From Seonamhaeicola sediminis (lineage in GTDB: Bacteria; Bacteroidota; Bacteroidia; Flavobacteriales; Flavobacteriaceae): DNA of 64,000 nucleotides. Positions 7,216-22,740 of this stretch are shown one piece after another; positions within the stretch are counted from its first letter, which is position 1, and the number at the start of each line of letters is the position of its first letter. The DNA is taken from the NCBI RefSeq assembly GCF_004358095.2, contig NZ_SMZJ02000001.1, forward strand, positions 124,001 through 188,000, written 5' to 3'. Under the pieces are notes generated by a model that had not been told where the DNA came from, made no database searches, and was given only the letters and a program-made list of their open reading frames with translations. The position numbers were made by a program, and so were the translations under genes.

Positions 7216-7939
7216 TGCTTTGGGGTTTTTGATTTTGCTAATATAGTAATAAAGCTAAATATACTTTTAAACCTGTTGGGCATTTTGACTTAAAGAAATA
7301 TCTAAATGTCAGTTGGAGTGATTTTTTCCTCTCAACTACGCTCGAGATGACAAAAAAAATCGTATCGAGAACTTGTACATAGACTGAAATTCTTATTCTC
7401 GATAGTTCTACTGAGCAGAGTCGAAGTGCAAATTTTACGGTTTTCAACCGTAAAATTCACTCGAATTGACAGTTTTAAAGTTTAAAAAAATCAAAATGAA
7501 AAATAGGTTCGAATGTTGTGCTCTGAATGAGGCTGGTGTTTGTCATTCAGAAAAGGATAGAGCGTTAAAAATACACCCAGTGGATGTATTTAGCGAAAAG
7601 GCCAGATAACGCATGGGCAAATGGCATAGGACGGGGAGTATGATTTACAATTAACATAAACTTAAAATCTGATTGTCATTATGAGGAGCGTAGCGACGTA
7701 ATAATCTCTTTATTTCAACTCCCAAATTAAAAAAATCTTTATCTAATCGAGATGCTTCAGTCGGTCGTAGCCTCGCTCCTTCTGCATAACAATCTCCTTA
7801 TAAGTAACAAACAACTACAACCATTCATTGTGAGGAGTTTCAATGTTCATTGAAACGACGTAACAATCTTTTTAATCAAATTCTACATTTAAAAGATTCT
7901 TACGCTCAGATTTCATCTTCGCTCAGAATAACATAACAA
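7216..7939. repeat. Intergenic gap filled with dispersed hairpin repeats
   Basis: No convincing gene is present between the permease and the tyrosine kinase genes. The gap holds several short repeat units. One is a composite with a perfect 12-bp stem (7431-7442 with 7446-7457, AATTTTACGGTT) and a 3-base loop. 7410-7429 (ACTGAGCAGAGTCGAAGTG) is related to the repeat found in argS. 7676-7717 holds a GAGGAGCGTAGCGACGTAATAATCTC-like unit (written here from its consensus pieces GAGGAGCG, TAGCGACG, AATCTC), and a variant lies at 7827-7876. A GCGTTA...TAACGC folded element lies at 7562-7612. Small ORFs here are translations of repeats. Confidence 0.75.
7562..7612 (+). ncRNA. Possible structured RNA element related to the one at 16561-16747
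   Basis: Outer stem GCGTTA (7562-7567) pairs with TAACGC (7607-7612). An inner hairpin pairs AAATACA with TGTATTT around a CCCAGTGGA loop. The 3' part, TAGCGAAAAGGCCAGATAAC, matches TAGCTGAAAGCCCGATAAC of the element near 16675 with one gap and few mismatches. The shared GCGTTA opening plus this 3' box suggests a common structural family. It may be degenerate, because the GGATTGAAGCGGCATCC hairpin of the other copy is replaced by a different stem. Orientation and transcription are inferred. Confidence 0.4.
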
Positions 7940-12179: not shown

Positions 12180-12311
12180 GAGATTCTTCGGTCTCTGCGT
12201 TCCCTTTGAATGACAGGGCGTGTGTCATTCTGAGTGAAACGAAGAATCTCAATTACAATACAAGCGTTATTCTGAGCAAGGCACGCAATGCACTAAGCGC
12301 AGTTGAAGTGC
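12180..12311. repeat. Palindromic dispersed repeat pair upstream of the ABC-F gene
   Basis: Inverted arms GAGATTCTTCG (12180-12190) and CGAAGAATCTC (12240-12250) match perfectly over 11 bp. Inner arms TGAATGACA (12207-12215) and TGTCATTC (12223-12230) also pair, giving a long hairpin. It is followed by a TTCTGAGCAAGG unit and ACTAAGCGCAGTTGAAGTGC (12292-12311), a variant of the unit in argS. An open frame runs through this DNA into the ABC-F gene, but the encoded sequence is repeat translation. Confidence 0.8.
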
Positions 12312-14284: not shown

Positions 14285-14532
14285 TGTCAGGGTGAGCCCT
14301 TCGTCTACGCTCAGGACAGGCTGCAGTAGAACCATGATAATGTAACAACTAAATGTCAGGGTGAGCCCTTCGTCTACGCTCAGGACAGGCTACAGTCGAA
14401 CCCTTATAAAACAGCAATCAATTGTCAGGGTGAGCCCTTTGTCTACGCTCAGGATAGGCTGCAGTAGATTCATCAACCAAACATCAAAATACACATTAGC
14501 TCCTACTGTCAGGGTGAGCGCAGTCGAACCCC
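14285..14532. repeat. Four tandem-spaced units of a dispersed repeat
   Basis: Units start with TGTCAGGGTGAG at 14285, 14354, 14423 and 14507 and end in CAGTCGAACC or CAGTAGA variants. Units 1-3 (~48-50 bp) contain an extra CTTCGTCTACGCTCAGGA-type middle; unit 4 lacks it and is only 26 bp. Spacers differ in sequence. The start-to-start spacing of the first three is 69 bp. This is not a CRISPR array, since units are degenerate and self-complementary and spacers are short. It lies directly upstream of the GIY-YIG gene. Confidence 0.85.
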
Positions 14533-14581
14533 AACATTTTATTTCTTATGTTTACGTTAATTTTATTATTATAAAACGTAT

Positions 14582-14890
14582 ATGTTATTGTATTATGTTT
14601 ACATACTCAAATGTAAAGACGAAAGTTATTATACAGGAATAACAAATGATTTAGAAAAAAGATTTAATGAACATCAAGCGGGATTTAACAAAGACTCATA
14701 CACCTATAAAAGAAGACCTTTGACATTAGAATTTCATCAAGAATTCAATGATGTTATCCAGGCAATACGTTTTGAAAAGAAAATTAAAAAATGGACTCGA
14801 GCAAAAAAGGAAGCATTAATTAAAGGAAAATTTGATATGCTACAGATACTTTCCGAATGCAGAAATGCAACTCACTATAAATATAAATAG
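14582..14890 (+). CDS. GIY-YIG nuclease-domain protein
   Basis: 102 residues, single domain. YYVYILKCKDESYYTGITND carries the GIY-YIG core in its UPF0213-like form (YVYILK...YYTGIT), followed by LEKRFNEHQAG with the conserved Arg and His, and the C-terminal FEKKIKKWTRAKKEALIKG helix. Small family members of this kind are common in Bacteroidota; their in vivo substrates are mostly unknown. It is preceded by four dispersed repeat units and followed 24 bases later by another repeat copy, an arrangement similar to that of the DUF559 gene. The catalytic glutamate was not assigned with certainty. Confidence 0.88.
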   Translation: MLLYYVYILKCKDESYYTGITNDLEKRFNEHQAGFNKDSYTYKRRPLTLEFHQEFNDVIQAIRFEKKIKKWTRAKKEALIKGKFDMLQILSECRNATHYKYK

Positions 14891-14913
14891 GTCATTATAA
14901 TGAGCTTAACTTG

Positions 14914-14939
14914 CACTTCGACTGCGCTCAGTGTGACAC
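14914..14939. repeat. 26-bp dispersed repeat, identical to the copy inside argS
   Basis: The 26 bases are identical and in the same orientation as 21229-21254 inside argS. They begin CACTTCGACTGC and end GTGTGACAC. They lie between the GIY-YIG and methyltransferase genes, and form part of a spurious N-terminal extension of the latter's reading frame. Confidence 0.9.
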
Positions 14940-14977
14940 AGTTTCGTTATAAAAAAGAAAGAGAACAATTTAAAAAC

Positions 14978-15751
14978 ATGTTATTTCAATTAATACAATA
15001 CATAAAATTCCTTTTAAAATCTACCAACCAGCATGGGGTACACTCCCCGTTTGTTTATGATTTAATTACTAAGTGCTTTTATGATAAAACTAGTTATACA
15101 GAATACAATGCTATTAAAGTATACCGCAGTAAACTTTTACAAAATAGAAACACCATTCAAGTTAATGATTTAGGACTTGGTTCTAGGAAAACTAAAACCA
15201 ATATTAGGCTGGTAAATGAAATTGCTAAAACCTCTGGAACTACTTTAAAAAGAAGCAAACTCCTTTTTCGAATATCAAAGTATTTTAAACCAGACCAAGT
15301 TCTTGAACTTGGCACTTCATTGGGTATTGCTACACATGCATTGGCTACCGGAAACCCAAAAGCTAATATCACGACAATTGAAGGTTGTCCAGAAATAGCT
15401 TCGTTTTCAAAGAAACAATTACATCAATACAAGAATATTGAATTAAAAATTGGAGATTTTAAAGATTTGTTACCCAAGCTTACTAACAAAAGTTACAATC
15501 TTATTTTCTTTGATGGTAATCATAAAAAAGAGGCTACTTTACAGTATTTTGAAGCACTTTTACCAACCATTAATAATAACACTGTTTTTATTTTTGATGA
15601 CATCTACTGGTCTAAAGGTATGACAGAAGCTTGGGAAACTATTAAACTACACCCAAAAGTTACCGTTACTATTGATACGTTTTTTTGGGGATTTGTGTTT
15701 TTTAGGAAAGAGCAAGTAAAGGAGCATTTTAGCATTAGGGTTAATCATTGA
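14978..15751 (+). CDS. Class I SAM-dependent methyltransferase
   Basis: 257 residues from the ATG at 14978. Motif I is QVLELGTSLGIATHALAT, motif II region ITTIEGCPE, and the post-motif region NLIFFDGNHKKEA, resembling the O-methyltransferase (COMT-like) group. The N-terminal block YIKFLLKSTNQHGVHSPFVY, typical of the Flavobacteriia members, fixes the start; the open frame reaches back to 14900, but those 26 codons are mostly repeat. The substrate is not known. No operon partner is evident, although it follows the GIY-YIG gene on the same strand. No signal peptide. Confidence 0.85.
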   Translation: MLFQLIQYIKFLLKSTNQHGVHSPFVYDLITKCFYDKTSYTEYNAIKVYRSKLLQNRNTIQVNDLGLGSRKTKTNIRLVNEIAKTSGTTLKRSKLLFRISKYFKPDQVLELGTSLGIATHALATGNPKANITTIEGCPEIASFSKKQLHQYKNIELKIGDFKDLLPKLTNKSYNLIFFDGNHKKEATLQYFEALLPTINNNTVFIFDDIYWSKGMTEAWETIKLHPKVTVTIDTFFWGFVFFRKEQVKEHFSIRVNH

Positions 15752-15974: not shown

Positions 15975-16550
15975 ATGAAGGTTTATACAAAAACAGGCGA
16001 TAAAGGAACCACCGCATTATTTGGAGGCACTAGAGTACCCAAACATCATATTAGAATTGAAAGTTATGGAACGGTTGATGAACTGAACTCTCATTTAGGC
16101 TTAATTAGAGATCAAGACATAAATCAACATTACAAAGATATTCTCATTGAAATACAACACAACTTATTTACCGTTGGAGCTATTTTAGCAACAGACCCCG
16201 AAAAAGCCATTTTAAAAAGCGGTAAAGAACGTTTGAATATTGAAAAGATTTCCTCTGATGATATTCAGAAACTAGAAGATGAAATGGACACCATGAATGA
16301 AGCGTTACCTCCCATGACCCATTTTGTATTACCCGGCGGTCACCAAACGGTGTCATTCTGTCATATAGCACGTTGTGTTTGCCGTAGAGCAGAACGTTTG
16401 GCTTCATCTCTTAACAACATAGAACCTATAGAATCTCATGCTTTAATATACTTAAACCGCCTTTCTGACTACCTTTTTGTATTGGCACGAAAGTTGACCC
16501 TAGACTTGCAAGCAGATGAAGTGAAGTGGATTCCTGAAAAGAAATCTTAA
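15975..16550 (+). CDS. PduO-type cob(I)alamin adenosyltransferase
   Basis: 191 residues. It transfers adenosyl from ATP to reduced corrinoid to make adenosylcobalamin. The N-terminal ATP loop YTKTGDKGTTALFGG, the VDELNSHLG motif and the C-terminal CRRAERLA followed by LNRLSDYLFVLAR are all family hallmarks. The length is normal for the stand-alone PduO/MMAB class. No B12 biosynthesis or B12-dependent enzyme gene is nearby, so it probably serves salvage for an enzyme encoded elsewhere, such as methylmalonyl-CoA mutase. ATG at 15975 matches the conserved MKVYTKTGD start. Confidence 0.94.
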   Translation: MKVYTKTGDKGTTALFGGTRVPKHHIRIESYGTVDELNSHLGLIRDQDINQHYKDILIEIQHNLFTVGAILATDPEKAILKSGKERLNIEKISSDDIQKLEDEMDTMNEALPPMTHFVLPGGHQTVSFCHIARCVCRRAERLASSLNNIEPIESHALIYLNRLSDYLFVLARKLTLDLQADEVKWIPEKKS

Positions 16551-16560
16551 TCTATTGTTT

Positions 16561-16747
16561 TGCGTTAGGGATTGAAGCGGCATCCTTTTTTGGTTAGACC
16601 AAATAATTTCTTTTGAATGCGAGATTGCTACAGTAAATTAAAATTTACATGGCAATGACACTCAAAAAAGATATAGCTGAAAGCCCGATAACAATTTTGT
16701 TATTCAGAGCACAGCGAAGAATGTTAAAACAAAATTGTTAAACGCCC
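16561..16747 (+). ncRNA. Probable structured RNA (Flavo-1-like) with enlarged loops
   Basis: TGCGTT at 16561-16566 can pair with AACGC at 16741-16745. GGATTGAAGCGGCATCC forms a hairpin (GGAT/ATCC), and GATATAGCTGAAAGCCCGA is a strongly conserved-looking box. The combination GCGTTAGGGATTGAAGCGGCATCC...GATATAGC..AAAGCCCG...AACGCCC (described here in pieces) recurs in Bacteroidota intergenic regions and may correspond to the Rfam Flavo-1 motif; I cannot check that here. Two insertions interrupt it. One, 16586-16662, contains a GCGAGATTGCT...GGCAATGACAC repeat. The other is a 12-bp perfect stem (16690-16701 with 16728-16739) that holds CAGAGCACAGCGAAGAATG. The rest of 16551-17005 shows nothing else. 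Confidence 0.6.
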
Positions 16748-20955: not shown

Positions 20956-22740
20956 TTACATGCGCTCTGGTACTTTGATCCCTAAAACACGAAAGGCATT
21001 TTTAATGGTATTAGCAACAACTCTAGAAAGTTGTACCCTAAAGATTTTTTCATCTTTATTGTCTGCTCCTAAAATTGATACGTTTTGGTAAAAGGAATTA
21101 AACTCTTTCACCAAATCGTACGTATAATTAGCTATCAAGGCAGGACTATGTTGTGCTGCTGCATTTTGAATGACTTCAGGAAATAACTGTAATTGTTTTA
21201 ATAATTCCTTTTCCTTGATATGCAAAGACACTTCGACTGCGCTCAGTGTGACACTGGCATCTAAATTAGCTTTTCGTAAAATAGATTGAATTCTGGCATA
21301 GGTATATTGAATAAAAGGGCCTGTATTTCCCTGAAAATCTATAGACTCTTTCGGATCAAAAAGAATACGCTTTTTAGGATCTACCTTTAAGATATAATAC
21401 TTTAAAGCTCCTAAACCAATGGTCTTATATAAGGCTTTCTTTTCAACTTCGGTATATCCTTCTAGCTTCCCTAGTTCATTAGAAATTTCTTCAGCCGTAG
21501 CTGCCATTTCATCAATTAAATCATCGGCATCAACCACAGTTCCTTCCCGGCTCTTCATTTTTCCGCTAGGTAAATCTACCATGCCATAACTTAAATGATA
21601 TAGATTTTTAGCCCAGTCAAACCCAAGTTTCTTCAGAATTAAAAATAACACTTGAAAGTGGTAATCTTGCTCATTTCCAACGGTATAAACCATACCTCCT
21701 ACATCAGGAAAATCTTTAATACGCTGTATGGCTGTTCCAATATCTTGGGTCATATAAACCGCCGTTCCATCGGCACGCTGTACTATTTTTTTATCAAGCC
21801 CCGCATCGGTTAGATCGCACCAAACAGAACCATCTTTTTCGGTATGAAACACCCCAGATTTTAATCCTTCGGCTACAAATTCCTTTCCTAACAAATAGGT
21901 ATTACTTTCGTAATACAAGGTATCAAAATCAACACCTAAGTTTGTATAGGTCTCATTAAAACCATCATATACCCATCCGTTCATAGTTTTCCAAAGTGAC
22001 ACTATTTCTTCATCTCCTGCCTCCCACTTTCTAAGCATTTCTTGGGCTTCTAAAAGAATTGGCGCCTCTTTTTTTGCTTCATCAAGTGTTTTTCCTTCAG
22101 CTACTAAGTTTTCAATTTCCTTTTTATATTCTTGGTCAAACTTCACATAGTAATTCCCAACCAACTTATCTCCTTTTAATCCAGTGCTTTCAGGTGTTTC
22201 ACCATTACCAAATAATTTCCAAGCCAACATACTTTTACAAATATGAATACCTCTATCGTTAATAATTTGCGTTTTGTATACCTTCTTTCCTGCTGCTTTT
22301 AAAATTTCTGCAACACTGTACCCTAACAAGTTATTTCTAATATGTCCTAAATGGAGCGGCTTATTGGTATTAGGTGAAGAGTACTCCACCATAATAGCCT
22401 TTTCATTGGGGTTTGAGTTTACAAATCCGTAGGCATGATTATCCTTTATTCTATTAAAAAAGCTTAAGTAATAAGAATCGCTAATTTCAATATTTAAAAA
22501 GCCTTTAACCACATTAAAAGCCTTAACATCATTCACATTATCAACTAGGTAATTACCAATGGTTTCACCAATAACTACCGGATTTCCTTTTACATACCTT
22601 AGCATAGGAAACACCACCACTGTAATATCTCCTGCAAACTCCTTTCTGGTTGCCTGAAATTCAACAGATTCGATTTCAACGCTAAAAGAAGCTAAAACCG
22701 CTTGTTTCACTTGATTAGATAAGGTTTCTTGAAGGCTCAT
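20956..22740 (-). CDS. argS: Arginyl-tRNA synthetase
   Basis: Charges tRNA-Arg. I start at ATG 22738-22740 (MSLQETLSNQVKQAV), giving 594 residues; the open frame extends 35 codons further, but a -7 promoter box lies inside that extension. Landmarks are the N-terminal ArgRS tRNA-binding domain, EYSSPNTNKPLHLGHIRNN (HIGH motif), KMKSREGTVV (KMSKS equivalent), and the C-terminal DALR anticodon-binding domain. At residues ~496-504 the sequence VTLSAVEV is the in-frame translation of a 26-bp dispersed repeat (21229-21254), inserted at the entrance to the DALR domain. The frame is intact and all catalytic motifs are present, so the enzyme should be functional. Confidence 0.96.
   Translation of the reverse strand: MSLQETLSNQVKQAVLASFSVEIESVEFQATRKEFAGDITVVVFPMLRYVKGNPVVIGETIGNYLVDNVNDVKAFNVVKGFLNIEISDSYYLSFFNRIKDNHAYGFVNSNPNEKAIMVEYSSPNTNKPLHLGHIRNNLLGYSVAEILKAAGKKVYKTQIINDRGIHICKSMLAWKLFGNGETPESTGLKGDKLVGNYYVKFDQEYKKEIENLVAEGKTLDEAKKEAPILLEAQEMLRKWEAGDEEIVSLWKTMNGWVYDGFNETYTNLGVDFDTLYYESNTYLLGKEFVAEGLKSGVFHTEKDGSVWCDLTDAGLDKKIVQRADGTAVYMTQDIGTAIQRIKDFPDVGGMVYTVGNEQDYHFQVLFLILKKLGFDWAKNLYHLSYGMVDLPSGKMKSREGTVVDADDLIDEMAATAEEISNELGKLEGYTEVEKKALYKTIGLGALKYYILKVDPKKRILFDPKESIDFQGNTGPFIQYTYARIQSILRKANLDASVTLSAVEVSLHIKEKELLKQLQLFPEVIQNAAAQHSPALIANYTYDLVKEFNSFYQNVSILGADNKDEKIFRVQLSRVVANTIKNAFRVLGIKVPERM
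21229..21254. repeat. Dispersed 26-bp repeat inside the argS coding sequence
   Basis: Identical over all 26 bases to 14914-14939. Read in the argS frame it encodes an in-frame peptide ending TLSAVEV without stop or frameshift. Confidence 0.93.

Follow-up and report, generated by a model that had tools for sequence, protein, structure and literature searches.

Among palindromic repeats that enter bacterial genes, the Rickettsia palindromic element RPE-1 of Ogata and Claverie reportedly places in-frame repeats in unrelated conserved proteins. It is an alphaproteobacterial element of ~100 to 150 nt, the long element of the Rickettsia families. A different class, the CGTC-tagged REPs, includes Rickettsia RPE-4 and RPE-6 and is reported from Bacteroidetes among other phyla; its members mostly form head-to-head dimers, some lie inside genes, tRNA synthetase and repair genes included, two Xanthomonas species have REPs at roughly corresponding positions of recB, and no dedicated transposase is reported (Di Nocera et al. 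2013, PMC3733652). Bacteroidetes possess a TnpAREP of subclass 2.6; atypical hairpins stand on its two sides and recur at other places in the genome (PMC6006769, PMC8266576). Palindromic amphipathic coding repeats are the subject of PMC2996958.

Here we describe a REP-like repeat which lies within the gene of an essential enzyme, arginyl-tRNA synthetase (ArgRS), and which also occurs elsewhere in the window, that is, in the whole 64,000-nt stretch of DNA analysed, and in the draft genome to which the window belongs. The relevant features are listed below.

20956..22740, minus strand: argS, arginyl-tRNA synthetase, 594 aa (ORF; Pfam PF00750 and PF05746; PDB matches to ArgRS)
21229..21254, minus strand: REP-like palindrome copy within argS, 26 bp, the same as 14914-14939
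21226-21252, minus strand: 27-nt coding block common to the window and two other genera, residues 497-505 (VTLSAVEVS)
14914..14939, plus strand: exact twin of the argS copy, close to the beginning of ORF 14900-15751, from sequence identity
14507..14529, plus strand: related copy with a different outer stem, GGGT/ACCC (L432), from the repeat search
7404..7426, minus strand: related copy with core GAGCAGAGTCGA (L431), from the repeat search
14285..14491, plus strand: three 69-bp tandem units with degenerate relatives of the repeat core
G000:C34:360620-360631 (L441) and G000:C34:186887-186898 (L439): in-frame copies elsewhere in the same genome, in an RND pump (CusA/CzcA type) and in MnmC

The likely start of argS is the ATG at 22740 on the minus strand (MSLQETL). 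Searched against Pfam with a 592-aa query, which begins two residues past this start and whose residue numbers were corrected by +2, the protein matches tRNA-synt_1d, which is its catalytic domain, as well as DALR_1, which spans ArgRS residues 477 to 594. The 26 bp at 21229-21254 and 14914-14939 are identical, with the match stopping exactly at both edges, and the argS frame stays open through the repeat, where it encodes VTLSAVEVS as residues 497 to 505 of 594. The original prediction of an exact, in-frame repeat copy in essential argS, close to where the anticodon-binding domain begins, is thereby confirmed. The copy sits in a hypervariable loop of this DALR domain; an AlphaFold model of ArgRS places the segment between two helices, but with low confidence (pTM 0.43), and is given no evidential weight. 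Its twin at 14914-14939 probably belongs to a non-coding stretch ahead of the true start of the gene in ORF 14900-15751. Two other ORF starts in the window, at 12206-12310 and 14361-14642, read through other dispersed repeats (with peptides such as VILSETKNL and STLRTGYSR) and probably reflect wrongly extended N termini or ORFs that are not real. At gathering scores, an Rfam search of the window found Flavo-1 RNA alone (RF01705, 46 bits, 16557-16694, plus strand, directly after an ORF ending at 16550) and left the argS repeat unmatched.

The argS segment belongs to a family of mobile palindromes that are REP-like and short, each copy having ~25 nt and consisting of a TGTCA tag, a covarying outer stem and a core, GAGCGNAGTCGA. 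In its own genome, searching with a 23-mer at up to 3 mismatches returned 14 copies and a stem-blind core search 22, against 0 for the reversed-pattern control in both cases; the argS match is therefore not due to chance, and the proposal of a dispersed, mobile repeat holds. Nine of the 22 core copies lie within ~58 kb of contig C1 (87765-145244). The exact CACT/AGTG form is present in 70 of 249 genomes of the Flavobacteriaceae, the family of the host's nearest named relatives, with 0 for the control; the repeat is dispersed across its own genome and many members of this family.

The outer bases flanking the core GAGCNNAGTCGA are complementary though they vary between copies. In the host genome, stem pairs 2 and 3 are complementary in 22/22 copies, with 3 and 4 pair types, respectively, which was matched by 0 of 2000 shuffles. 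Among the loci examined, pair 3 is complementary in 58 of the 65 copies with a stem other than CACT/AGTG (shuffle mean 18.3, maximum 27). TGTCA stands directly 5′ of the stem in 63/153 CACT/AGTG copies and 30/65 other copies, and the 63 tagged copies display a purine bias beside the stem as well as A/T-rich flanks. A covarying stem plus tag is the anatomy of a REP-like palindrome.

How does this repeat compare with the systems introduced above? Like the CGTC REPs, it is a short palindrome with a TGTC tag variant at one end, a variable stem and intragenic copies. The unpaired tag of that class (CGTC, TGTC or CCTC) is found in part of the flavobacterial copies only, as TGTCA. Whereas CGTC REPs have a stem of 8 to 9 bp with A-T at the first two positions and a loop of 4 to 5 nt (PMC3733652), the flavobacterial repeat has four variable pairs, the first position being A-T in 17/65 copies and the second mostly C-G or G-C; its core is fixed by the search pattern itself. 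The 3-nt tail of the CGTC REPs, mostly CCA, is absent from the 63 tagged flavobacterial copies; the GAGCGNAGTCGA core is a further difference. Because it lacks the A-T stem start and the CCA tail, we do not file the repeat under the CGTC REPs. For that class, the sections of PMC3733652 considered here give no account of one set of codons acquiring a repeat more than once across genera.

With the GTAG REPs of TnpAREP/RAYT systems, the repeat shares the spread of a hairpin family through the genome; unlike GTAG REPs or REPINs, it has no GTAG 5′ of the hairpin, TGTCA being the commonest tag, and no RAYT gene was found in its own genome at E ≤ 0.001. In-frame copies inside unrelated conserved proteins are a feature in common with the RPEs. 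Unlike RPE-1, the repeat is ~25 nt long, resides in Flavobacteriaceae and recurs at exact sites. A topic search of open-licence papers yielded neither an account of this repeat within flavobacterial genes nor one of gains recurring at the very same codons. By sequence, a 16-mer gave no match and six 12-mers retrieved nothing on bacterial repeats, as judged by titles.

As anticipated, LSAVEV-type peptides are present in other conserved proteins of Flavobacteriaceae. Among relatives, 144 exact copies were read in 130 loci, every context distinct, and 29 rows of exact copies lie inside ORFs, a count restricted to ORFs of at least 150 aa with the copy away from the ends. A Pfam scan of 22 different repeat-bearing ORFs returned matches for 18 and none for 4 (L159, L300, L306 and L341); outside that scan stand L163 (NCBIfam only), L310 (TopB motif only), L278 (three rows) and L281. 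Known families account for 20 of the 144 copies, including the two further TopB copies in L163 and L310. The families with in-frame copies include TopB, PurL, RNase R, LeuRS, MetH, Mfd and TrpF, further hosts being a histidine kinase and methyltransferases. The copy in L318 precedes the GIDA domain and may fall in a false 5′ extension; those of L183 and L301 lie outside the domain. Around residue 306 of the LeuRS of G104 (L335), an insert of ~40 residues before the editing domain seems to consist of more than one repeat type.

In the host genome, 3 of 22 copies fall in ORFs with a family match, namely argS, the CusA/CzcA-type RND pump and MnmC. Whichever base stands at its variable position, the consensus can be read without stops in four of six frames, so survival in frame is easy. 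Given these open frames and so few copies in matched ORFs, the suggestion that the repeat is under selection to lack stops finds no footing.

The central observation concerns the argS loop itself. We surveyed 174 loci, of which 172 gave readable loops (L199 and L229 could not be parsed), 145 of them distinct. Scored against the repeat at a cut-off of 11, which codon-shuffled loops reach at the 99.9th percentile (13 at most), 21 distinct loops match in forward and 6 in reverse orientation. Eleven loops from distant family members (6) and other families (5), parsed from the 29 loci L367-L395, score at most 7. In the loop of L352 (G109), the left half of a repeat copy is succeeded by a second palindrome of another kind, TTCCGATAGTTATCGGAA, as if nesting.

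Three genomes of three genera carry an identical 27-nt block at the same argS codons: the window (L025), L114 and L216/L347. Elsewhere in argS of L025, L114 and L347, four-fold sites agree at just 0.30 to 0.35, and no pair of these genes has an identical nine-codon window among the 568 compared, with 184 to 279 nine-residue windows identical as protein. On either side of the block, still within the loop, the sequences diverge immediately (10 to 14 of 18 and 4 to 5 of 9 nt identical). Since four-fold sites and flanks have diverged in this way, the 27-nt identity goes beyond plain descent or the transfer of a longer segment. A REP-like repeat thus fills the same nine argS codons in different genera, over and above what descent provides. 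The argS copy is younger than most synonymous divergence between genera; of the proposed recent insertion, this relative sense of "recent" is what stands. Relatives with the same residues on diverged DNA had been named as a finding that would make the peptide ancestral. One such case exists, L079, where VTLSAVEVS is encoded with 25/27 nt; it does not overturn our reading because in two other genera all 27 nt agree between flanks that have diverged.

The repeat had been thought to add residues to ArgRS, leaving a clean gap in relatives. No clean gap of 8 to 9 residues was found at this site among the relatives aligned. Of the 145 distinct loops, 65 have 18 aa, the commonest length and that of the window, 63 have 14 to 17 and 17 have 19 to 26, the shortest having 14; 594 aa is likewise the commonest ArgRS length (54 of 119 proteins). 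Within the genus (seven genomes), the loop has 18 aa in four, 19 in one and 14 in two, and that of the window is 4 aa longer than in 2 of its 6 congeners. In argS, the repeat replaces residues instead of adding them. What survives of the proposed tolerance of this site is thus tolerance of the repeat; tolerance of extra residues does not follow, since an 18-aa loop is the commonest length.

A clean gain is seen instead in topB, encoding DNA topoisomerase III. In the loop after GWRxVF, 5 of 33 topB genes carry the repeat, all at one junction; three of the carriers were picked for having it, and two were among the best 30 matches in 120 genomes. In three of the carriers a stretch of 27 nt is identical, at a four-fold identity of 0.40 to 0.47. 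The five carriers need 5 changes on the topB tree, in which 13 of 30 branches are weak; for four of them the sister row is a non-carrier, and L310 sits in an unresolved fork. Most non-carriers (23/28) have a native loop of 12 aa, typically ENPNAKEKESGI-like. With five changes, non-carrier sisters and a mostly native 12-aa loop, the gains in topB look separate. L162, placed beside its sister L423, shows an apparent clean gain of 27 nt.

The strongest alternative is that independent insertions each were followed by a compensating deletion that restored loop length, an account which overlaps with the insertion branch of our preferred explanation and which we hold to be possible, if rather unlikely. 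It would accommodate the full topB insertion of L162 beside the nearly length-neutral copies of L163 and L396 at one junction, as well as two argS loops of 26 aa: that of L123, with a reverse copy and 18 aa once the copy is taken out, and that of L046, with two tandem reverse copies. Against it, all 17 forward copies in 18-aa argS loops share one offset. Plain independent insertions would not give such sharing of offset and length, nor would random deletions.

The same 17 of 17 forward copies would be expected from a single ancient insertion into the argS loop that passed to every descendant and that a few lineages preserved intact through selection on a DNA or mRNA hairpin. Weak traces in other 18-aa loops also point this way. 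Forty-four low-scoring loops of 18 aa average 12.66/27, whereas shuffling the codons of the repeat gives 7.78 and 0 of 2000 shuffles do as well; 31 of the 44 match best in the repeat register. Their same-codon count is 42 against 27.5 expected, kinship being ignored in this comparison; the excess is mostly serine AGC (8 versus 1.6 expected), with none for leucine CTG (0 versus 1.2). However, on a tree of 119 distinct ArgRS proteins, built with the loop removed and having 40 of 116 weak inner branches, the near-exact carriers (alignment score at least 22/27) are scattered, such that 7 copies need 7 changes; the loop states forward, reverse and none need 22. Moreover, L027, from the sister species of the window's (92% identical), holds a decayed copy in the opposite orientation, and the separate-looking topB gains among mostly native 12-aa loops argue in the same direction. 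An unusually stable single-strand hairpin was also rejected, folding-energy z values being 0.22, 0.08, 0.59 and -0.83 in four sequences. We therefore consider one ancient insertion, as the whole account, improbable. With caution, we read the traces as those of an old argS copy that has decayed in many lineages and been overwritten anew in some.

Two further alternatives have very little in their favor. That the peptide is native and its DNA convergent on a favored VTLSxxEVSL is scarcely credible, for although L087, L362 and related loops have a similar peptide on diverged DNA, 27/27 nt agree in three genera between diverged flanks, including the argS-rare codons GTC, CTG and AGC, and opposite-orientation copies occupy the same loop in L046, L057 and L123. 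Transfer of a short argS tract between genera could produce the 27 identical nucleotides but is equally remote, as identity ends at the repeat and each genome has other repeat copies as possible donors.

Which enzyme might move the repeat? PF01797, the family of Y1 transposases including RAYT, gave 0 matches at E ≤ 0.001 in the host's own draft genome, which speaks against such an enzyme as mobilizer there. This also counts against the explanation favored below, whose transfer step has no known agent. Among the 39 genomes of the relatives search, 14 have PF01797 matches. In an informal comparison, the number of repeats showed no obvious tie to Y1 genes: there are 14 repeat matches but no Y1 match in G003, and strong Y1 matches but no exact repeat copy in G013, G016 and G022; G012, on the other hand, combines 4 exact copies with 14 Y1 matches.

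The explanation we favor, which is likely in outline and has an even chance in its full form, is that a REP-like family has been delivered with nucleotide precision, and repeatedly, to the same argS and topB sites in independent lineages, through site-preferring insertion and ectopic conversion, creating parallel nine-residue peptides by means of an agent other than the usual RAYT. New copies would keep arriving at coding sites already used: in topB by insertion at a preferred position, in argS through ectopic conversion that overwrites a decayed predecessor, with length and register mostly unchanged. The ordinary folding energies, the common length and register of the forward argS copies, the many weak branches of both trees, the limits of the codon comparison and the choice of three topB carriers for their repeat weigh against this explanation. 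Copies that are in frame in tolerant loops would survive selection and later decay through point mutation, and the peptide itself would not have to have a function.

If this explanation is true, the Flavobacteriaceae would offer a natural replicated experiment, one mobile hairpin having come to identical codons of essential enzymes in different genera, and it could be tested which sites REP-like repeats prefer when no transposase is evident. It would also provide a clear route from repeats to new protein sequence, and would serve as a warning against taking every peptide shared by distant proteins as a mark of descent or selection.
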